A stretch of 64,000 nucleotides of DNA. Origin: Caenorhabditis elegans. Lineage: Eukaryota; Nematoda; Chromadorea; Rhabditida; Rhabditidae. Shown piece after piece: positions 17,628-63,500 of this stretch. The stretch covers positions 9,548,001-9,612,000 of the forward strand of contig NC_003283.11 of NCBI RefSeq assembly GCF_000002985.6. The letters run 5' to 3'. The position numbers were made by a program, and so were the translations under genes. Positions within the stretch are counted from its first letter, which is position 1, and every line of letters starts with the position of its first letter. The notes beneath the pieces are model-generated. The model saw only the letters and a program-made list of their open reading frames with translations, was not told the origin of the DNA and made no database searches.

Positions 17628-20600
17628 CTAGTTGACCGCTGGCATCATACGACGTCTCGCAATTTTCTTTCTAGGACGGAGAACCTGAAAATAGATTAGA
17701 TGAATTTTGAATTGGGAGAAGAGTGGAATAGATAATAGAGTCAAAAATAGGTATATGAAGACTACATCGTAGTTAATAAGAACCAAGATAATGCAACAAG
17801 AATAATCTTGAATCTAGCTCTTGGTCGGAATTCAATGTTGCGTTTTTGCACTTACATCTAGAGTTAATTATACTTGATCAAACAGTCTCAACTACCACTT
17901 CTGAAATTTCCCCAAAAACTCACCACAAACGAACAAACAAGATTCTTATTGACATACATCACTGCAGCTGCATTATCAAACTGTCCACAGTAGAACGGTG
18001 CCGAAAAGATTGTAACCAGACGACGATTAGCAAAGAATTCGTAGCCGTCTTGCACAACTTGATGAGCACGAACCACGAGATCAATTTGAAGACGATCGAG
18101 AAGTTTGCGAAGGGCATCTGATCCAAAAACGTACGAAACACCACGAGAGTTCGGGTTCCATCCTTTTTGGAAGTTTGTTGGATCGCTCCAAAGAATGTCA
18201 ATTGCAAGCGTATTTGGCTCAGGATTGTCAAATGGACGTTTGATAGCACGAAGTTGACTGACGTTTTGAAGCTGTAAAAAGTTCAAGTTTATTTGTACCG
18301 AACCGTAAAAATTTGATACCATTTTGGAAACACCGCCATGCATACACAAAATTCTCTGACCAACAAGAGCTGTCAATGGCATAACCGAAAAGACACCTTG
18401 AAACGAATGCCATACGGATGGTTTGTTGTAACGGCGCTGACACTCTTCGTAGAATCCATATTGCCTGTTGATAAGTGAACATTCGTGATTGCCTCGCAAC
18501 ATGAAGAAATGGTTTGGAAAGATGACTTTGTAGGCGAATAGAAGCAAGATTGTTTCAAGGCAATGCTTTCCACGATCCACATAATCACCAAGAAACAGAT
18601 AATTCGCACGATGTGGGAAGCCGTTTTTGTCAAAGAGGCGAAGAAGATCACTGAATTGTCCATGAATGTCACCACAAATGTTAATTGGTGAGTTGACCTC
18701 AATGAGCATTGGTTGCTTATTGAATATGCTGCTGAAAATTAAACAAATTTTTCAGAGCTTTAAAATCATCAGAAAATGTGGCTTTGCAGCATTTGAAAAA
18801 TACAGGGTGGGCCAAAAGTATGGTAACACGTTTGCAGCTCTATAACTTTACTAGTGGAGAGAGTTATTACATCAATTTGTACAAGTTTTGTTCTCCATAA
18901 AATACTGACCAGATGAACGTTTTGAATTTTCAAAATATTCCCATCCGCATCGCTGCAGGCCTTCAGAACTTTTGAGATCACGACCTTTATGGCACGCAAG
19001 TCGGCATTCTGCGGGATTTCTACATTTTTCTCGAGGAATCCATCAAGTGTCTTACAAGTTTTTATAGTTCAAAGAATGCTCTTGGTCTAGAGATTCTTTA
19101 AAAACAAAAATCCAAATAATTTCTATCACGGTATTTCTGTCATGCACTGCGGCAGTAGGTTAAGTCTTGAATGGCATAGTCGCCAGAAAGATGGATGTGA
19201 GCGGCGGCAGCAGTATGCAGAAAAATTCATTTTAGTATTTTTCGAGACGTTTTGACCTGACTTTCCAGAATTTTTTTAGAAAATTGAGCTCGGATGATTT
19301 TGTGGGTCATTACGCCTTGCGAAACCAAAAAAACTGAGTAAATTTCGCAAAGTTGAATTCATGAAATATTCAAAGGTTCTTGCTAGGCGCCAGTGTCGAC
19401 ACAGAAAATTTTTATATGCTATAAAAACAATTAAAAACGCTTTTTCACTTCTTTAACTTTAAATTTAACATAAAAATCATACATCTGAAAATTATTGGCG
19501 TGCGTGGGAGGTGTGTTTGTGTGGGAAGTGCCGCGTGCCAAATTACCGTTTTTTCGGAAGGGTTCGCCAAATTGTCGAGGTGATAAAGATCGCACCTTAT
19601 TGAGAAACATTACAAATTTTGAGTCAAATTGAAGGAAATTTATTCAGCTATCAGTATTCGATAGAAGAATGTACGTATGACGTGGCAGTCGCGCGAAAAG
19701 CTCATGTAAAAGAGCGCTTCATGTGTTACTTTTGGCCCACCCTGTATTGTATCAAGAGAATATTTCGGGGAGATATCTTGAATCCGGTTACATGACACTC
19801 TTCACCTAATACAACATTTTCAGAAGTGTTCTCTAGTTTGAATATAATAACCTACAATGCATGAAACAGCAAAGTTTCTACATCCTCAGGTGGAATAAGA
19901 CGTGTCAGCTCCATATCTGTGCTCTTTCCGCTTTCAAGAACTCGCATCAGGATACTGTAGGCAAATTGAATCTGAAATAATGCTCTCAAAGGAATATAAA
20001 AATTGAGGATAGTTTTATAAATCATCTGATCACTCTTCTTAATATAACTAATTTATAATTACCATTTGACTTGAAACATTTCTTTTTATAGATTATTATT
20101 TGACATTAAATGTGAAGTTTCATTAGTAGGGATATCCCTTCAAAAAAATCCAGAAAATCTCCAATTCACAAAAACCACTAAAAAACGGGAAAGAATGAAA
20201 AATCAAAATTTCAAAAACGTGATGTTCCTATTTTTGTTATTCCCTGTGTGAAATTTCTCCAAAATGAAAAGCCATGTCGACTTCGAACCAATCAGCTCTA
20301 TACACTCCATCTGATTGTCTCGAAAATGAATGGAGCGAATCGCTGATTGGTCACAGTTATCCTTTTGAAGGAAAATCAAACAGGGAATTGAGCCAAAATT
20401 GAAACATCTTGTTTAAAAAAAACATTTCGTCTCTAAATCTCTGAATTTAGTTTTTTTGAAGCGATATTCCCATTCACGCTTTGTAAAACTGTTACAAACC
20501 ATGCTCTTATTCTCCGGAGTGATTGCGGTCTTGCTGTTGCTCTGTGGCACACGACGCGTCTTCTCAGTTTCATTTGCAATTTCCGGTTTGGTCTCCAACT

Positions 20601-32537: not shown

Positions 32538-34627
32538 TCAAACTGCTGAGGATGGTGCAGCTGATGTGGAGGATCCAGCGTCACCACCTCCTGATCGACG
32601 CATTCGATAATCACTAAGTGACACTCCTCTGAAAATATAGCAATTAAAATAGTCCACTATAAGATGTGCTAACTTGGAAGAACTAATTGATGGACGTTTG
32701 TTTCCTGACGATTCCGGCGTACTAAAATCCTTCAATTTACCCAAATCGATGTCTAGATCAAAGTCATGCAGACTGGATATATCAGTTTTTTTCTTTATTT
32801 GAGTAGATGGAGGAGGTTGCGTCGGTTTAGCCAATGATGAACTTTTGTCTTTTCCGCCGTCAGATACTGAAAATTATAAAGTTATGTCAAAAAATTGATA
32901 TTTCCTATTAACTTACAATTTGTGGTTGATGAAGATGCGGAAAGAGTTCCGTCAAGTCTTGATTTAGATCCAGAAACAACACGCATACCTCCCTTCTTAC
33001 GTGTAAAAGGATCATCCTGTGAATTCTCTTCGATCTTCAATTGCCCACTCAGGACTTGGTCCTTTATTTTTGATCGATTCCTATGGTTAATGAACGCAAT
33101 CGCACTAATTGACTTGCTTCGCTCTTTCTCCAATTCATCAGCTTGTCGTTCAATCTCATCGATTTTAGTTTGAATTTGTTCGGCTTCTCGAATGTCACCT
33201 CGTTGTTGAGCCAGCTCTTTTTGCTTGGACCAATTAGCTTTTGTCATAGCGAAATTTCGTGGAACTGTTTGATATTTGCTCTTTTCCTTGATCATCAGAT
33301 CGACTTCTTTGTCCGAATACTTGTGGTTGATTGCTTTTTCGATATCTTGTTTTTTCTTATCCATAATATCGACGGTTGGAAGATTTCCGTGTCTCTTACA
33401 TGCCAGAAGCCATTCATCAAACTCAATTTGTTCGAAATCAGCATTTGAAACGAATTGCATACGGAATGGTCGTTCTGATCCACCTGCAGTTAAGGTTGTA
33501 ACAGATTTCAAATTTTCACAAGTAAATAAACAACTCACCATTCTGACATTTTATGATTTTATTTGTCTTTTTTCCTTCCAATTCGTAGACTTTGTTGGAT
33601 TCCTCCACACCGACAATCTTCCATATCCGATATTTGCTTCCTGAGCCACTCATTTGCCCTTGTCCAAGTCGAACATAGCATCCTACGACAGTAGAATCAA
33701 AGAATGGGGCATGAATCATCAATGAAAGTTTATGACGGGACAATCGAGCTCTTCGAAGTTCCGAAAGTCCATCAACATCTTTCTTTACTATCTTATCTTT
33801 TTCGGATACACGTTCTGGTGATGATTCGCGGGAAGAAGATGATGAACGAGAGCTTTCGCTTGAACTAGACGAACTTGAAGATCCCGAATTAGCTCCAAAA
33901 ACAGCATCGATAGAGAGTGCTTCGTTTTTTGCATTTTTCTTTTCGATCTCTTTACGTTTGTTCTTCAGAGCATCCATAGCATTCTTCTCTTTATGTTTGC
34001 GGTTAATCTGGAATAAAAATTTTTATTTGAAAAATAAAAAAATAAACTTACATCACTGGGTCGGTGGAAAGCAGCATCCATCTCAGAATCGGAATCCGAT
34101 GAAGCTTTGCGTTTCGGGGAACCTGCATCACTTCCACCACTGTTCATTTTCCTTCGTTTTTCGGTTTTGACTCCCTTTTCAGAACTTTTCTTTGCTTTTT
34201 TAGCAAGTTGTTGAGCAATTTCTTCTCGAGCAATCGCGTTTTCACGAGCCTCCATCCTTTCAAAAATTTCTTGCTCCTTTTCCAATTCTGTCAATTTCTT
34301 CCATCTTGCTTTGTCTTCTTTGTCAGCAAATAAATCATCATCTACTTGGTCATCGTCACTACTTCCAGTAGCTCGCCGCTTTCGCTTTGTTAAAGTCTTC
34401 TTTTTTGCAGGCTTTGCCCTGAAAATGGAAACTCGTATAACTTTTTTTTGGATAGAAAACAGTAAAACTCACTGTGGTTTTTCGGCATCTGAATCGGATG
34501 CCGAGGAGTCGGTACTGAGAGGTTTTCCAGGTTTTGGACCTGCGTCTGAGTCAGAATCGGAATCTGAAGTGGCTGGAGCACGGCGTTTTGTCTCTTCGTC
34601 TGATGAAGCACTCTCAGAGGAAGACAT
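32538..34627 (-). CDS. rtfo-1: RTF1 homolog, Paf1-complex elongation factor (Plus3 domain)
   Basis: Nuclear elongation factor that in the RTF1 family promotes H2B ubiquitination and associates with RNA polymerase II. Exons 34627-34473, 34418-34052, 34007-33539, 33483-32917, 32866-32674 and 32628-32538 join in phase (613 aa). The N terminus is a Ser/Asp/Glu-rich acidic tract (MSSSESASSDEETKRR). A Lys/Glu-rich coiled region and a poly-Ser block at about 217-235 follow. The Plus3 domain is about 253-380 (LSELRRARLSRHKLSLMIHA, VVGCYVRLGQGQ, YRIWKIVGVEE). A coiled segment with FAMTKANWSKQKELAQQRGD comes next. The last intron is only 45 nt and in frame, so a retained form would still encode protein. 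TGTTCTCAG, 14-22 nt above the ATG, fits an SL acceptor. Confidence 0.93.
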
Positions 34628-53069: not shown

Positions 53070-53910
53070 ATTTTTATACAGCGATGAACATGTTATGTAG
53101 TGGAACACACTTTTACATGAATCTAGAATTGCTTTCCACCCCTACCATCATCATCATCACCAGGACAATTATGACCATACTTTATCCCAAAGCTCCTTCT
53201 CTTTTTGTTTTCAAATATAAGAAAACATAAACTACATTTGAAGAAGAAAAGATTCTATTTTTCTATTACAAAGGTGATTTGATCCTTCATTTTTTAGATT
53301 AATCCTTATTAGCAAAATACCTAAAAGTTTATTTTGTAATGCTTTACATTTTTTTCTGCTGATCCTTTTGTGATTTTTGATGAAAAAAGATAGCGTGGGT
53401 TGTGATAGAAGGTAACAGACCATTTCACTTCACTGACCTTTATTCGTCTTTTTTTAGAAATCATCTTATACGTTCTGTTTTTCCCTCAAAATTTTATTTG
53501 AATGACGTAAAAAATGTGTAACGATGCTGATCACATGAAGAATAATTGATAACTCGTTGAGGTCTTATTTACAAAAAAAATAACTGCGAAGGCCCCTTGA
53601 TACTTCCCACGCTTCGATTGAAGTTCACAGCTCTCTTCTGAATCATACATAAATATATGGAAAATAAGAACGAATATGGGAAAATAATGTTTTTTTGCTA
53701 AAAATTAAGTGAACTGCTGAATTGTTTGAAATTATTATTATTATTGAATACGTTTATTTGAACATAAAAATAAGAGAAGAAAAAGAGGAAAAATATCATT
53801 ACTTATATATTAAAAAATACAGTTCGTCTGTCCATAGTTTGTAGTCTATGTAGTCTTTGTAGTCTGTGACGTCACACCCAAAGTCAGTGAGAGTTTGTGG
53901 GCGGGGCCTG

Positions 53911-54255
53911 TCACCTTCGTGGTGACACCCATCGTGGTGAGACCCTTCGTGGTGAGACCCATCGTGGTGAGACCCTTCGTGGTGACACCCATCGTGTTGA
54001 GACCCTTCGTGGTGAGACCCATCGTGGTGAGACCCTTCGTGGTGAGACCCTTCGTGGTGAGACCCATCGTGGTGAGACCCTTCGTGGTGAGACCCATCGT
54101 GGTGAGACCCTTCGTGGTGAGACCCTTCGTGGTGAGACCCTTCGTGGTGAGACCCATCGTGGTGAGACCCTTCGTGGTGAGACCCATCGTGGTGAGACCC
54201 ATCGTGGTGAGACCCTTCGTGGTGAGACCCATCGTGGTGAGACCCTTCGCGGTGA
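53911..54255. repeat. 15-bp tandem array, about 23 units
   Basis: Unit GACCCTTCGTGGTGA alternates with GACCCATCGTGGTGA, differing at one T/A position; the first units have CACCC. The period is a multiple of three, so long open frames run through it on both strands, but their repeated peptides are artefacts. Confidence 0.95.
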
Positions 54256-54261
54256 GACCCA

Positions 54262-55465
54262 CATTTTTGGCGAGAAATTCAAATTTTCAGTGAAAAAAAT
54301 TTTGGCGAGAAATTCAAATTTTCAGTGAAAAAAATTTTGGCGGGAAATTCAAATTTTCAATGAAAAAAATTTTTGGCGGGAAATTCAAATTTTCAGTGAA
54401 AAAAATTTTGGCGGGAAATTCAAATTTTCAGTGAAAAAAAATTTTGGCGGGAAATTCAAATTTTAAGTGAAAAAAATTTTGGCGGGAAATTCAAATTTTC
54501 AGTGAAAAAAATTTTTGGCGGGAAATTCAAATTTTCAGTGAAAAAAATTTTGGCGGGAAACTCAAATTTTCAGTAAAAAAAATTTGGCGGGAAATTCAAA
54601 TTTTCAGTGAAAAAATTTTGGCGGGAAATTCAAATTTTCAGTAAAAAAAAATTTGGCGGGAAATTCAAATTTTCAGTGAAAAAAAATTTGGCGGGAAATT
54701 CAAATTTTCAGTGAAAAAAATTTTGGCGGGAAATTCAAATTTTCAGTGAAAAAATTTTGGCGGGAAATTCAAATTTTCAGTAAAAAAAAATTTGGCGGGA
54801 AATTCAAATTTTCAGTGAAAAAAAATTTGGCGGGAAATTCAAATTTTCAGTGAAAAAAATTTTGGCGGGAAATTCAAATTTTCAGTGAAAAAAATTTTGG
54901 CGGGAAATTCAAATTTTCAGTGAAAAAAATTTTGGCGGGAAATTCAAATTTTCAGTGAAAAAAAATTTGGCGGGAAATTCAAATTTTCAGTGAAAAAATT
55001 TTGGCGGGAAATTCAAATTTTCAGTAAAAAAAATTTGGCGGGAAATTCAAATTTTCAGTGAAAAAAAATTTGGCGGGAAATTCAAATTTTCAGTGAAAAA
55101 AATTTTGGCGGGAAATTCAAATTTTCAGTGAAAAAATTTTGGCGGGAAATTCAAATTTTCAGTAAAAAAAAATTTGGCGGGAAATTCAAATTTTCAGTTA
55201 AAAAAAATTTGGCGGGAAATTCAAATTTTCAGTGAAAAAAAATTTGGCGGGAAATTCAAATTTTCAGGGAAAAAAATTTTGGCGGGAAATTCAAATTTTC
55301 AGTGAAAAAATTTTGGCGGGAAATTCAAATTTTCAGTGAAAAAATTTGGGCGGGAAATTCAAATTTTCAGTGAAAAAAAATTTAGCGGGAAATTCAAGTT
55401 TTCAATGAAAAAAATTTTAGCGGGAAATTCAAGTTTTCAATGAAAAAAATTTTAGCGGGAAATTC
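54262..55465. repeat. About 34-bp tandem array with an E2F-like core, about 35 units
   Basis: Each unit contains TTTGGCGGGAAATTCAAATT, then TTCAGTGAAAAA. Length varies mainly in the A-run. The first two units read GGCGAGAAA and the last three AGCGGGAAA, so variants sit at the edges and the homogenised form is central. TTTGGCGGGAAA matches the classical E2F/DP consensus. Confidence 0.95.
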
Positions 55466-55480
55466 CAATTTCTGAGAAAA

Positions 55481-56140
55481 ATCGAGAAATGTCTGCAATG
55501 TTCCAGAACTTTCTAGAAAATTCGAGAAAATTCCGGAATGGTCCAGAATTTTCTAGAAAATTCGGGAAAACTCTGGAATATTCCAGAACTTTCTAGAAAA
55601 TTCGAGAAAATTCCGGAATGGTCCAGAATTTTCTAGAAAATTCGGGAAAACTCTGGAATATTCCAGAACTTTCTAGAAAATTCGAGAAAGTTCTGGAATG
55701 GTCCAGAATTTTCTAGAAAATTCGGGAAAACTCTGGAATATTCCAGAACTTTCTAGAAAAATCGAGAAATGTCTGCAATGTTCCAGAAGTTTCTAGAAAA
55801 TTCGGGAAAATTCTGGAATATTCCAGAATTTTCTAGAAAATTCGGGAAAAGTCGGCAATGTTCCAGAACTTTCTAGAAAATTCGAGAAAATTCCGGAATG
55901 GTCCAGAATTTTCTAGAAAATTCTAGAAAGTTCTGGAATGGTCCAGAAGTTTCTAGAAAATTCGAGAAAATTCCGGAATGGTCCAGAATTTTCTAGAAAA
56001 TCCGAGAAAGTTCTGGAATGGTCCAGAATTTTCTAGAAAATTCGGGAAAATTCTGGAATATTCCAGAACTTTCTAGAAAAATCTTGAAAAGTCTGCAATG
56101 TTCCAGAACTCTCTAAAAAATTCGATAAAATTCTGAAATG
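55481..56140. repeat. Continuous heat-shock-element array, about 66 decamers
   Basis: Consecutive 10-mers follow TTCnnGAAnn (for example TTCTAGAAAA, TTCGAGAAAA, TTCCGGAATG, GTCCAGAATT), so inverted nGAAn units recur every 5 bp. TTCTAGAA returns every 40 bp and an 80-bp higher-order unit is visible from 55511. I see no indel disturbing the 10-bp register across about 660 bp. This is the binding-site grammar of trimeric HSF1. Confidence 0.95.
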
Positions 56141-56647
56141 TTCAATTTCGTGGAAAAATTCAAGAAACTTCTGCAAAGTTCTACACAGGGTTCTGGCTCG
56201 ACCCCGCGCTTCATTGGACACTGAAATGGCGGGAAAAAACTTTGAAATCGCAAGAGGAATTTTCACGCAGCGCGTTGAAAAAAGTGTATGCATTTGCGCG
56301 TGACGGTGTTTCTTCAAGTTTTGATACTCCTAGAATATTCTGAAGTTTCAATAATTTTAAAAAAATATCAAAAATTGTTATAATTTTCAGAAACGCTCGC
56401 CAAAAACTTTCGGAAAGGACCGGAAAATGTTTCATATGATTTGAAGAACGTAGAGAAAATTATACGTTCAAGAAATTTAGAAATAGTTCCAGGAAACTTG
56501 AGGTTTTAAGTTGTAATTGCTCAGAACTTAGTTATATAATATTTATGTTGCTCGAAAATTTCCGGTAACCAGGGAAAAAACGTTCCATCTGCAAAGAAGG
56601 CTTAGAAAATTTAGAATTTGATTTCAATTTTGAGTACGCCAGTCGGA

Positions 56648-56667
56648 GCACGCGCTTCAGCGCGTGC
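56648..56667. repeat. Perfect 8-bp-stem G+C-rich hairpin near the Helitron-like 3' end
   Basis: GCACGCGC and GCGCGTGC flank a TTCA loop. An imperfect outer stem (CCAGTCG / CGGCTGG) extends it to the CTGG end. It is the most G+C-rich structure in the surrounding 10 kb. Confidence 0.85.
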
Positions 56668-56677
56668 GAACGGCTGG

Positions 56678-59600
56678 TAAATTATATTGAATATTGTGGA
56701 ATGGAACAGAAAAGTGGGAACGGGTTGAGGCCTTGTTACATAACCTTACCATTTATTAATGTTTCCAAAAAATAGGGATAAAGCCTGTGTCTGATGAACG
56801 AAAGTTAAGAATGATTGCTTTTTGCAAGGTTTACTATAGCACTGAGAACACGATGAGTGAAAAAATGAGTTCGAAGTTTGCTTTTAGGAGTTTTCCATCT
56901 GTAAGCGTAGATGTTCCTAGTTCTTTCAGAAGGTAATATTTATTCAAAAATTAAAAAAAAAATCAGAGCACATTTTAAAATTTCGTTTAGACGAACCCCA
57001 TTTTTTGCGGACCTAAACATGATATTCAGGTCAACAAAAAATGATATTTACAAATTTTCAGAACTTACACACCAGTCGAAAATTGCATTGAGAATTTCAA
57101 ATCAACCCAGGTTTTCTTGTTTTGAACAGCTCTTCGCTGTTCAAAAATTCATTCTAAAATTGTCCGATTTTTTGAACTATCCTTGTTCCTCTTTCTCTCT
57201 TTTTTCGGTCAATTCTATTTTAATCCAGAGCACTTTTAAATCGAATAAACATTTAGTTGGGATGCCAATTAACAAACATTTCGTCCCCCCGAACTTGATC
57301 TAATTACAACTTTCACTCCTTTCAATGTTCTGTTTGAAACTCTTTGAATCTTTCAGAATTTTTCCCAGAAAAACTTCTTCTTTTGTTCTCACGTTATTTT
57401 ATCATTTTACATTCAAGTTCTGAAAGATCAAATCAGACTATGAATAAGGCAAACCTTTTTACGAGAAAATTGAATTGCGTTGGTGTTCAATGTTTTTATG
57501 CCGTAGATTAGTAGTTATCTGAATCAGTTTTGTCTATACATTTTCTTTTTCAACTTGCGTTGATTTCCACGTACAACTTATTCATTTTCATGAAGAACAA
57601 TTTATTTGTTATCTTCAATTGTCCATCTTTTGCCTTTGCTCCTTCCAATTTCTTGATTTTTTTGTTTGTACGTCACTTCACATAGCTTCTCCTTTTTCTT
57701 TTTCTTCTACCAAATTGATAATTGATGAGTGGCGGAGCACCCAGTGGAGTAGTGTGAGATTTACATGTATGTGAATGGGGGACTAGATTTGTTTTGTGTT
57801 GTGGATGTGTATTCCGTTTCTTTATTTCCATTCATTCTATCATCAACACATGTATGTTCTTCCGGGAAACTTTTTTTCGCACTGGTTCCAAAGTGCCCGT
57901 AATTTGCAAGTTTAAGCTAAAAATCAATTCATTGTTGGGCTTGTCTAGGAATTTTTAATATATTCCAGTATTTTCATTATTTATCTACTAGAGATTAAAG
58001 CTAATAATGAGTCAAATAGTAAAAGACCGATGGAAAAATCAGTTCCTGAAGGTATTTTTGGTAATGCTGAATCATCCATCAAAACCTTTTTCAAGGATTC
58101 GTAAAATTACTATAAAGTTTGATATTAACAACAGTTAAAATTTTGCAATATTTGTACTGACAGTAAGTTCACTAATTTCAATAAAAACTTTGTTTAAATT
58201 TTTCTTTTTTATTTTGCCGTTGTTTTTGTTGTGAAAATTGACCAAAATTGATATTTGTATGTTATTATTCAAAAACTAAAAAAGAATCTCGCCAATACAC
58301 TTTTATCATAAAACATCTTTTAAAACAAAACAATTAAACTACGAGTAGCCACAGTATTCTCAAACACTGTGATCTCCTGATATTGTTCTATATGGTGATA
58401 ATTTATTATTTTATTTACACTAAAACGTGTGTGGCGTTATATTTTCCCATAACTAAACTTTATCAGAATTTCAGGAGATCAAACAAAGAAGGGACAATTA
58501 GACCACATGTGGTAAACTGTTAATGCCATTTTTTTACTCGTGATTAATAATTATCAGTGACAATTCAATTAAAGTATTCACCGAATGAGCACGTTAGACG
58601 AATTCTGTAAAATATGTTTAAAAACTTATTCCAAATAATAGTATTCTGCGAAATTATTTTTGTGATTTTATAAGTCACCGATATATAAATTTCATTACGC
58701 TGCTTTTGAGGTATGACTTTAGATTTGCGTGGTAGTAACTTATAAATGCTTGCCATAATCATGATGATGACAATTGTTATAGGTTGTCGAAATTTATTTA
58801 GAAGAATAAAATACTTGTCAACTGGAAAGAATACATTTCATTTTGAAACATACAGTTTTGTATATAATTTCGTAGATTGAATAAGCTTCCTGACCATAGA
58901 CAAAAATCTCCGATACAACTTTGTGGTTACTAATTTAGAGTTAAATTAGTTTAGCTCCCTATTAGTATTCTCTAGTTACTTCCAACTATACAGCTTCGTT
59001 GCCTAATTGTCAAAATTTTTATGAGAACTATCTAAGCATTGACGTAGGTTTCATTAACTTGTTAACTCACGGTTGTATGAAACAAATTTCAGTTTTTAAA
59101 GTGTTTTCGATGTTTCTAACATTTCTTTCAAGAAACCCCATATTTTTGTTTGATCCGTGCACTAGATTAAAAAAAAAACCTTTACACTTTGGCTTTTTTC
59201 TGTTTTCATATAAATTTGATCTTGCTTTTTTACACTAGAGGTCCGAAAAAGTAACACCCAATTTAGAAAAATAGCCAAAACAGGAGGAACGGCTCGCAAT
59301 TTATGTGCATTTTTTTGTGTCAACTCCACCCCAAGGCTTCTTCTTCTGCTACTTCTACATCTCTACGCCTGTCCTCCGCCCATCTCAAAGTTCGTTTATG
59401 TCTTGGGGACCGCATTTTCTCCGCCCCTTTACTCTTCGTTTTTTCTTTATTTAGTAAAGAAGAGATGTGGAAAAGATATTCATACTTTCCTTCCGTCTAA
59501 AATTCAACTGGCTTCTGAAGGTTTCTGCTCAGTCTAGGGCCACTTTTAATAGTTCACAAATAAACTATTGTTCAGTCTTGACAGAAGAAAAACATTCAAT

Positions 59601-60579
59601 GACCTTAACTTTATTCCTTATTTTTGTCATTAGACATCTCGCACTTTGCTCTTTACTTCCTTGCCTATTTTCAAAAGACAACTCATCGTTGGACCCTTAC
59701 CCCCCGAGATTCAAAAATTGAATATTCAATTGATGTGAAAGAAATCATCTGGGCTACCAGAGACGTGCCTCCTGGATTTCTTCTCTTTCTTGATAGATTT
59801 GGAGACATGAACCCCATCATTGCCAGACCTGCACTTTTAATTTTTTTTTCTTATTGGTGATTTTTGGGCTGCAATAACCTCAAAAACTATTTTTTTTTAA
59901 ATGTTTGAAGGTCTTCCAAAATATTCATGACAGAAATACAATTGTTCGTGTTGGTTAATGTGCTGAAAGTCTATGTACAACTTTTGTAATTTCCACAATG
60001 ACAACTTTTTTTCGTAGCTAAATTTCACATTTTGTGTGACTTCCCAACTTAATTTTATTATTTGTTGATCACTGATTTAGGATTAAGAGTAAGCTTAATG
60101 TGTGCTTTGTGTTAGAAATTTTAAATATTTTTAAAGATTTTACTTTAAGAGAGAATAATGATGTTTTTCAATGTTTAGTATTGATGTATCAAATACATTA
60201 CGTTGACAGTCATCTGAGCATTGGTAAAGAATTTCAAACTTTGAGCGAAACACTTAGAACTTTCCAAGCAAATTATATTTTTCTAACTCTTCAGATTCTT
60301 TCTGTTATCGAGTCTAAAAAACTTCAAAATTCAATTCCATTTTTGAAGTGTTCCGTGCCTTTTTTAGTTTTAAAACATTCTGAGAAACTAAAATCTATTA
60401 CGTTTCAGAAAGTAGGACCATTTGTAGAACTACTTACAGCAAAAAAACACTTGAAAATTTTTGTTCTTTACATTTTAGCATTAATCCTTGGAACACCTTT
60501 GTTTTTACCTTCTTCAAACCGTCTTGTTGGCTTAAAAAATGTAATAAAAAACTGTTTTAAGGTGATCCAACTCCAAAAA
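56678..60579. other. Gap between the Helitron-like block and dop-2
   Basis: A+T-rich, with no convincing gene. It probably includes proximal dop-2 promoter or 5' intron sequence. An unusually long open frame (60100 onward) runs into the first recognised dop-2 exon, but its first 150 codons have low-complexity composition. Confidence 0.4.
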
Positions 60580-63500
60580 ATGGAGGCCGGAGAGACATGG
60601 AATGTCTCCCTTGAATGGCCTCCACCCTCTCTTGATCTTTCAACAATCACACAAACACCATCAACGATAGTCGGAAGTGGAATTCCTTTGAACTACGCTG
60701 GACTTTCTCTTATTGTTATTCCACTCATCACGCTACTTGGAAACCTTCTGGTTAGTTAGAGTTCAATTGTCAGTTAAAAAATATATACAACTGTGTAATG
60801 TTACAGATAAAACTACTTGTTGATGTTTTTGATAAGAATGAAATCTTGAAAAATAAGAAATGTATCTTGATAGTCTAAAATTATCAAAGAAGAAAAAAAA
60901 ATTTTGTCTCAAAACCCAGAAATTAGGGAGAAATCAGAAAACTTTTTTTTTTTCAAAAAATCGAAACATCAAACAACGAGTTCTTTTGTGCCTCAGTTCG
61001 TCTGACATTTAAAATCAATATGCCAAGATACTTCTTAAATTATCTTCGAAACGGTATCAAAATATTATTCAAAATTTGTGAACAAAGAACGATTCCTTGC
61101 GATTCTGGAGCAATGTCTTATAGATGTTCGTGTGAAACTCAGTTCCTCACATTTATTGTACATTTGGTTCAATTTCAAACTCCAAAGCACGTTCCAAAAT
61201 AATAATAAAAAAGTATATTTTCTTTTCAGGTAATAATATCAGTACTCCGGTACCGAGCACTGCAATCAGCCATCAATTTCCTTATCCTAGGCCTGGCTGT
61301 GGCGGATCTTTTGGTGGCCATCATAGTTATGCCATACGCGGTTTATGTATATGTAAGTGATCAATTATATGTCTTTTGTTGGCAACCACAGCAACAGCTC
61401 TCCATAGCAGCATAGGCTCCCAATCTGCGTTTTCCTGAAGTGACGTGCTGTTCCACCTCTCTCTCTCTCTCTTTGCCTAACAAGGGAAACCGAGGTTGAG
61501 AAAAAACGAGAAAAGAGACATCAGCGACCAAGAGCAGTAATTTGTTGAGTGTCTCTCACAAGAGCTCCCGAGCTTTGCTCACACAGATTTATGGTTGTTT
61601 TCTGACGGTTGCCACGTCATAAGTTTTGGTAACTAGCTAACTAGTTGCAAACGTTGAAAGTCTCGTTGCATTTATAAATAGTACTAGAACACGTTGAAAA
61701 TGAAAAAGAAAAGAACATCAAAGAGAAGAGACAAGACATGAAGCTGGTTGATGTAATCCCCTGACAGCTATCACATAACTCTATTGATGGACAGAGTGCC
61801 AAACGATACTTCTTTGTTAAGTTCCGTAGGTTTTCCCGTTGAAACAGAACTCTGCAAACTGACTTGACTTAAAAAGAATAGAAAAAGGGGCATGATGATG
61901 GATGGTACAAGGAGCGTGTGCGTGTGTGTGTGTGACGTGGAAATGAAGCCCAGTGGGGTGGAAAAGGGGAAAGAACGTGGTGTGAAAAGTGTCAAATTAG
62001 ATGCACGGAAAGCCGTATTTATTGCTTCCTAGATCCTTCCAACCACGAAGGCTTTTCCTTTTTTTCCGGTAGATTAGAGAAAGCGTCAGGAGTGAAGAAT
62101 AATGGAGAATTAGGGTAATGCGTATCAGATTCTGCAGAAAAAAGCAATTGAATAATAGACTTTGAAATTGTGTTTCAGTTGGGAAATTTCCATCGACAGT
62201 ATAAATGAACACCATAATTACTATTGTAGTACAAAAACTAAAAATACCATATATTCTATTTTAGTGCTGCATCGCACTATTCCATTTTGGAAAGGTATAT
62301 CTCGGTTTATTTTGAAGATATCAAAAATTACTGTTCTACAAAACTATAGAAAAAGAATTCAAAATGATTTATTCATTTGACAATTTTTAATAAAAGAAAA
62401 GATAACCGAAAGTAGTCAAAGCAATGGTGTACAGAAGTAAAGAATATACGTTATTCGTTTTTTCAACTGTCCATTAATTTTCCCTAATTTGCAGGTCACC
62501 AACGGCGACTGGTATCTAGGAAATCTAATGTGTGACATTTACATGGCATCTGATGTGTGCTGTAGCACAGCTTCTATTCTTCTTCTTGCCGTAATTTCAT
62601 TCGATCGGTGAGTCGGGAGTTTCGAGTCATCTGAATAGAAAATGAACGTGTGGCTGTTATTCAACCAACCATTTTTTCTTTGTACTCATTTTTTGCATTC
62701 AGAATATGACGGGGAACAGCAAAGATCGTGGGAAAAATGTTAAGAGCATAAATCTAAGTATTTTGCTAAAATAAAAATGCACAGTTTTCTACAAAAAACT
62801 GAACTGTTCAATTATTTCAGATACCGTGCAGTCTCTTTACCAATTCAGTATTCAAGACAGTCACAAAATGTGAAACGGGTATGGACATTGATAGCTGTTA
62901 TATGGTTGGTCAGCCTAACATTAGCCAGTCCAATGGTTTTTGGTTAGTTTCATACATATATCCTTTTAAAAAAAATCAAACTCTTCTGAATTGAAGGAGT
63001 AAACGTTCGTCCACCAGATGCTAACCCATACGAGTGTCGATTCTACAATGCTGAGTTTTCGATCCTCAGTTCTATGATCTCGTTTGTTATTCCTTGTTTT
63101 CTAGGTAAATTGAAAAGCCAAAAATGGTTTATTAAAATAGCTTCCCCGTTTCAGTACTTTTCGTCTATATTCGAATTATAATTGCTCTAAAAAAACGAGA
63201 AAAGGCAGCTAAAATGAGGAGAGAGAAGAACACAATTGCGCACGGTTTAACGTAAGATTTATTTGTTTACAATATTTGAAAATATTGAAATTACAGAATG
63301 AGGCCTGATACAGGCGAAGAGCAAGTTGACGAAGAAGCTGCAGGGCGTATTGTTGCTGGACCAGGTTAGTTTTCAAGTTTTTGTAAGATTGCATTCAGAT
63401 GAGCGCACAAAAATTGACTAGGCTTTGATACTTTTTTAAGATTCATAGAAATTTCATAGAGAAGTGAAGTGAATTTTTCTCTTGAGTCGTATAACATAAT

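Follow-up and report, generated by a model that had tools for sequence, protein, structure and literature searches.

A heat-shock-element satellite within a young, HelitronY4_CE-like transposon of Caenorhabditis elegans

The host Helitron and its surroundings

The stretch of Caenorhabditis elegans DNA analysed here (the window; 64,000 nucleotides, positions 9,548,001 to 9,612,000 of NC_003283.11) carries on its + strand, at 53796–56677, a 2,882-bp Helitron, complete and non-autonomous, which is delimited by its end letters and by boundaries at about 53795 and 56678 that are common to the fetched copies in BLAST comparisons. The 5′ end has an A followed by the terminal TC (53795–53797) and the 3′ end a terminal CTGG followed by a T (56674–56678), giving the TC and CTRR termini of Helitrons. 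A terminal hairpin, GCACGCGC-TTCA-GCGCGTGC (56648–56667), lies upstream of the CTGG end at 56674–56677 and stops 10 bases short of the 3′ terminus, close to which Helitrons carry such a hairpin; folding of 56638–56678 as DNA gives −16.8 kcal/mol, a stability equalled by 0 of 200 shuffles. By frame length the element holds no Rep-helicase gene, the longest overlapping stop-to-stop frame being 159 aa.

Between a 5′ unique head (53796–53913; 88–98% identical across 29 matches that each span 100 bp or more) and a 3′ unique tail (56141–56647; 19 of 21 matches 97–99% identical, the other two 92% and 70%) lie three tandem arrays with units of 15, 35 and 40 bp, the third of which is a lattice of heat-shock elements (HSEs). 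TRF places the 15-bp array at 53914–54260 (23.1 copies, consensus CCTTCGTGGTGAGAC) and the 35-bp array at 54265–55471 (34.6 copies, unit with GGCGGGAAATTCAAA). The 15-bp unit is the published HelitronY4_CE repeat, CCATCGTGG(T/C)GAGAC being present in the window, and 37 of the 40 letters of the 40-bp consensus agree with the published HelitronY4_CE unit after rotation (both compared by eye with the units given in PMC4039745). Judged by these two units the element is HelitronY4_CE-like, an assignment made by published repeat units.

All three kinds of array were found by TRF in 30 of 41 loci, namely the window and 40 fetched loci (40 of 1,117 candidates were scored); since the loci were picked as matches, this proportion is not a genome census. 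Satellites of 15, 35 and 40 nt are listed as families in PMC9918286, which prints one satellite at V:14156207, beside the start of a 15-bp array at C5:14156209 (L046), and another at II:14993697, beside 35-bp units that run from C2:14993733. At one locus (L011, C5:1252500–1260500) four 15-bp arrays occur in succession, with 35-bp and HSE arrays after every one of them, as tandem element modules. The 15-bp array is nearly indel-free in every copy where TRF found one, and no candidate factor is named for it.

The 35-bp array varies in unit length, as originally described, and its usual unit is 35 bp (23 of 34 units) rather than the 34 bp first given (8 of 34), the remaining three being 36 bp. 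These differences fall in an A/T run; the variable neighbour, first contrasted with the lattice, thus changes length in homopolymer runs, one of the observations that leave an unusual explanation for the register of the lattice unsupported. The 15-mer GGCGGGAAATTCAAA occurs in 29 exact copies in the array and in 32 with at most one mismatch, and exact 25-mers of the unit number 696 in the genome. The unit carries GGCGG, four letters and TTCAAA, which resembles an E2F site with a CHR after it and fits a CDE (BSSSSS) next to a CHR (TTYRAA) under the codes given in PMC5683655. Extra conservation of these E2F/CHR-like letters appears with one alignment anchor and is gone with another. The C. elegans DRM complex is reported to be recruited by a hybrid E2F/LIN-54 motif (PMC3093354), and EFL-1 is reported to have at least 20% of its sites in regions derived from one or another kind of transposon (PMC8896005); the array may have a DREAM or E2F role.

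Downstream, a whole-genome 7tm_1 search places receptor exons on the + strand at 61230–61358 (29.7 bits, short of the 30.5 cut-off) and 62492–62608 (37.1 bits, above it), with a further exon past the window end. This 7tm_1 gene, a candidate for dop-2, lies about 4.6 kb beyond the Helitron end. Among the 39 distinct frames (of 181 listed) scanned with Pfam no 7tm_1 match was found, and 59458–59721 gave a weak 7TM_GPCR_Srab match below the cut-off; one frame compared with solved structures gave no match. Elsewhere in the window, on the − strand, lie a frame with a calcineurin-like phosphoesterase domain (17888–18751) and one with a Plus-3 domain (32882–34022).

Make-up, register and age of the lattice

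The lattice occupies 55481–56140 (+ strand) and consists of 66 decamers of the form TTCnnGAAnn in a single phase, with inverted nGAAn half-sites in register as in an HSE array; the original prediction of some 66 decamers in one 10-bp phase is thus borne out, and there is no slip within the interval. The pattern is perfect in 45 of the 66 decamers, and 370 of 396 core letters match; the 26 mismatches in phase compare with 208–383 per 390 in the remaining nine phases. Perfect half-sites number 106 of 132, with longest runs of 14, and 27 non-overlapping runs of three perfect half-sites would each provide a seat for a trimer. The window holds 30 copies of TTCnnGAAnnTTCnnGAA (0.04 expected from shuffles), all of them within the lattice. 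A pattern of six perfect half-sites reads the same on both strands and was therefore counted on a single one; its exact matches number 1,554 genome-wide and 18 in the window, and the backwards control gives 0.

The 10-bp register stands, yet 10 bp is not the repeating unit. TRF reports a 40-bp array at 55469–56143 (16.9 copies), and lag identity is 0.85 at 40 bp and 0.90 at 80 bp. The 80-bp alternation of two unit types (0,3,0,3,x,3) in the 5′ part suggests local amplification, whereas the 3′ part appears inherited, since units 10–14 of the 15 typed units recur as an identical run in two other loci (L013 and L024). The recent amplification that had been proposed is thus partly right, fitting the 5′ part and not the 3′ part.

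To locate phase slips we used a hidden Markov model with parameters set by hand. For the lattice it returned two slips, both just past 55481–56140 in the degenerate right edge. Across the 41 loci, 13 of the 16 arrays of at least 500 bp were free of slips except within 60 bp of an end, internal slips being confined to L009, L012 and L048; the 71 segments of at least 60 bp yielded 70 slips, one edge pattern recurring in many of them, and 30 segments had none. One further locus (L043, C4:15074800–15084200) has nine 102-bp stretches of HSEs scattered through long 35-bp arrays; every stretch contains a single phase slip, equal in size in all nine, and no 15-bp array was found there.

The differences of the 15 typed units from their nearest units anywhere sum to 6, corresponding to about 6 private substitutions per 600 bp. 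Elsewhere in the element indels accompany substitutions at ratios of 19 to 180 in the 3′ tail (21 matches) and 53 to 167 in the 5′ head (29 matches), which are rough because the matches share ancestry. At these ratios about 0.6–2 indels would be expected in the lattice, so that finding none is not surprising. Weighted TRF indel rates are 0.12% for 15-bp arrays (41 arrays), 0.47% for 40-bp arrays (48) and 2.84% for 35-bp arrays (64). We infer that this copy of the lattice is young and that it owes its 10-bp register to the amplification of 40-bp units together with youth, and not to host selection at this site.

Half-site conservation and HSF-1 binding in the family

Conservation was assessed on 415 units from 38 loci, after removal of runs shorter than 80 bp and of units or runs that matched the consensus at fewer than 26 of its 40 letters. 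Half-site letters depart from the consensus in 6.7% of cases and spacers in 30.9%, a difference implying that HSF binding probably shaped the lineage of the element. By column, departure is 0.8% at the middle A, 5.8% at the G, 13.4% at the outer A, 24% at the inner spacer and 38% at the outer spacer. This order of middle A, G and outer A fits the contacts made by HSF with its half-site. Of the five frames GAA has the lowest entropy, a value that none of 20,000 column permutations matched.

The share of differences in the core varies with the distance at which units are compared. Among pairs with at least 10 differences, 0.26–0.33 of the differences fall in the core, while among close pairs (1–3 differences) the share is 0.53–0.56, against a neutral 0.60. 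Private single-step changes (36.8 core versus 33.2 spacer, p 0.22) are compatible with neutrality, whereas unique units at distance 2–3 still differ away from the cores (8 of 30, p 0.0003). Variants seen at most five times number 64 in cores and 38 in spacers, a count on which we do not rely, since rare variants are depleted in spacers by the alleles that are common there; the nearest-unit comparison is better, though mixed. The unit comparisons suggest that selection acted on the mobile lineage in the past and is weaker or absent on single copies, for which the sign is mixed. The quantified sign of historical selection of a family satellite for HSF contacts is what the present analysis adds.

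The find itself is otherwise ordinary, because the family, its HSEs and its binding by HSF-1 are published. In agreement with the original prediction that HSF-1 sites reside in a Caenorhabditis Helitron, ChIP-seq (Garrigues et al. 2019, PMC6927752) has placed HSF-1 on five Helitron types, HelitronY4_CE among them, with binding increased under heat. The same study reports that Helitrons hold 61.4% of HSEs, that each of eight HelitronY4_CE copies has more than 100 HSEs, and that Helitron HSEs are enriched close to heat-induced genes; dop-2, first proposed as a target of the lattice, is not named in its main text. Helitron1_CE RNA is reported to be HSF-1-dependent in heat (Schreiner et al. 2019, PMC6765114), and in heated germ cells HSF-1 is said to prefer Helitrons, according to a review that cites another paper (PMC9737000). 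On the side of repression, LIN-13, HPL-2, LIN-61 and MET-2 are reported on Helitron families, many Helitrons being up in lin-13 mutants (PMC5395297). Occupancy by HSF-1 and Pol II, induction of neighbouring genes and diversion of HSF-1 in germ cells are thus already published for the family, though not for this copy, to which the equally published ideas of enhancer and sink-like roles would apply by family analogy.

The lattice is best explained, with a probability that we put at about 0.88, as the HSE satellite of a young non-autonomous transposon of HelitronY4_CE type, whose lineage was selected for HSF binding and which would serve as a family-typical reservoir and potential enhancer. The array would have been retained since HSF-1 binding helped the lineage of the element, probably through stress-induced expression or mobilisation, and the present copy would be an inherited array that was re-amplified in part by 80-bp steps. 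It could seat many HSF-1 trimers. Published family data show that HSF-1 and Pol II accumulate on Helitrons of this kind after heat shock and that some of the genes nearby become heat-inducible.

Competing readings and known relatives

The exact register had originally been thought to need an unusual explanation, and selection by the host, which would keep this array in phase as an HSF-1 sink or as an enhancer serving the worm, has several points in its favour: zero slips across 660 bp, a receptor gene downstream on the same strand, and a phenotype on deletion of other Helitrons, those upstream of fbxa-215. With some 6 private substitutions, however, so few indels are predicted that their absence is unremarkable; array length varies widely between copies whose tails are 98–99% identical, and six arrays among the 41 loci exceed the present one in length. 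Given the youth of the copy and the equally regular phase of most long sibling arrays, host selection for the register is unneeded and was rejected; it is improbable. A role of the 10-bp period in DNA shape rather than in HSF-1 binding (phased A/T tracts, nucleosome placement or germline licensing) is less probable still. It would suit the outer spacers of the lattice, which are A/T-rich (74% A or T) every 10 bp, but across columns the A/T letters of the spacers are free (entropy 0.99), those of the core are not (0.31), and the G/C columns of the core are conserved (0.35). Free spacer A/T and fixed half-site letters disfavour a DNA-shape origin of the period.

A third proposal goes further than HSE satellite and reservoir. 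HSE lattices of the family could serve as the DNA scaffold for the nuclear stress bodies that HSF-1 forms in worms, and palindromic transcripts of the lattices could give rise to heat-induced nuclear dsRNA; upon heat, HSF-1 would cooperatively fill and transcribe the lattices, yielding dsRNA foci, whereas beforehand the 35-bp E2F/CHR-like array and LIN-13/HPL-2 heterochromatin would keep them silent. This chain of events, drawn by analogy with human satellite III, is speculative and rather unlikely, although ahead of either host selection or DNA shape. A 2019 paper described the binding sites of the granules that HSF-1 forms in worms as unknown, and reported that heat-induced dsRNA foci overlap these granules in part (PMC6453478); the granules are also reported to re-form at similar places, which implies a scaffold (PMC9737000). 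The lattice sequence is quasi-palindromic, and its RNA is predicted to fold at −290 kcal/mol, against −157 ± 7 for 20 shuffles. The first 500 nt of each of 14 arrays of 500–999 bp are likewise predicted to fold at −0.35 to −0.47 kcal/mol per nt, compared with a background mean of −0.21 ± 0.04 and a minimum of −0.31 in 40 window pieces; RNA of the 35-bp array reaches a predicted z of only −2.6. Against the proposal, a partial hsf-1 loss-of-function mutant (hypomorph) is reported to have retained dsRNA foci and the dsRNA pool to be enriched for downstream-of-gene transcripts (PMC6453478), and the arrays are scattered over the chromosomes with no single block. Helitron binding and stress bodies are treated separately in the review PMC9737000, and among the papers listed no title or abstract connects worm stress bodies or dsRNA foci with the HSE arrays. 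Were the lattice a scaffold, tandem repeats would seat stress bodies in worms as they do in humans, spread in worms by a transposon, and a transposon satellite would be the functional twin of human satellite III. The lattice offers a cheap test of which DNA the worm HSF-1 stress bodies use, and of part of the dsRNA source.

As the satellite of a HelitronY4_CE-type element, the lattice is closest to HelitronY4_CE itself, which has 15-bp and 40-bp tandem repeats and whose published members combine many HSEs with HSF-1 occupancy in heat; no distinguishing difference was found, the length and unit order of the window array being its own, as they are in other copies. Autonomous Helitron1_CE likewise has HSF-1-bound HSEs and HSF-1-dependent RNA in heat (PMC6765114) and is reported with flanking satellites of the 15-nt and 35-nt families (PMC9918286), but unlike the window element, which has no frame longer than 159 aa, it codes for a Rep-helicase. 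Human satellite III is also made of HSF1-bound tandem repeats (as cited in PMC6453478), and worm HSF-1 too forms nuclear granules; satellite III, however, is a pericentromeric block, whereas the worm arrays are dispersed with a transposon. In the window the arrays of 15, 35 and 40 bp follow one another within a single element. The RcS5 family of C. elegans, reportedly described by La Volpe and colleagues in 1988 as a tandem repeat that is dispersed and carries heat-shock consensus sequences, would be like the lattice in these respects.
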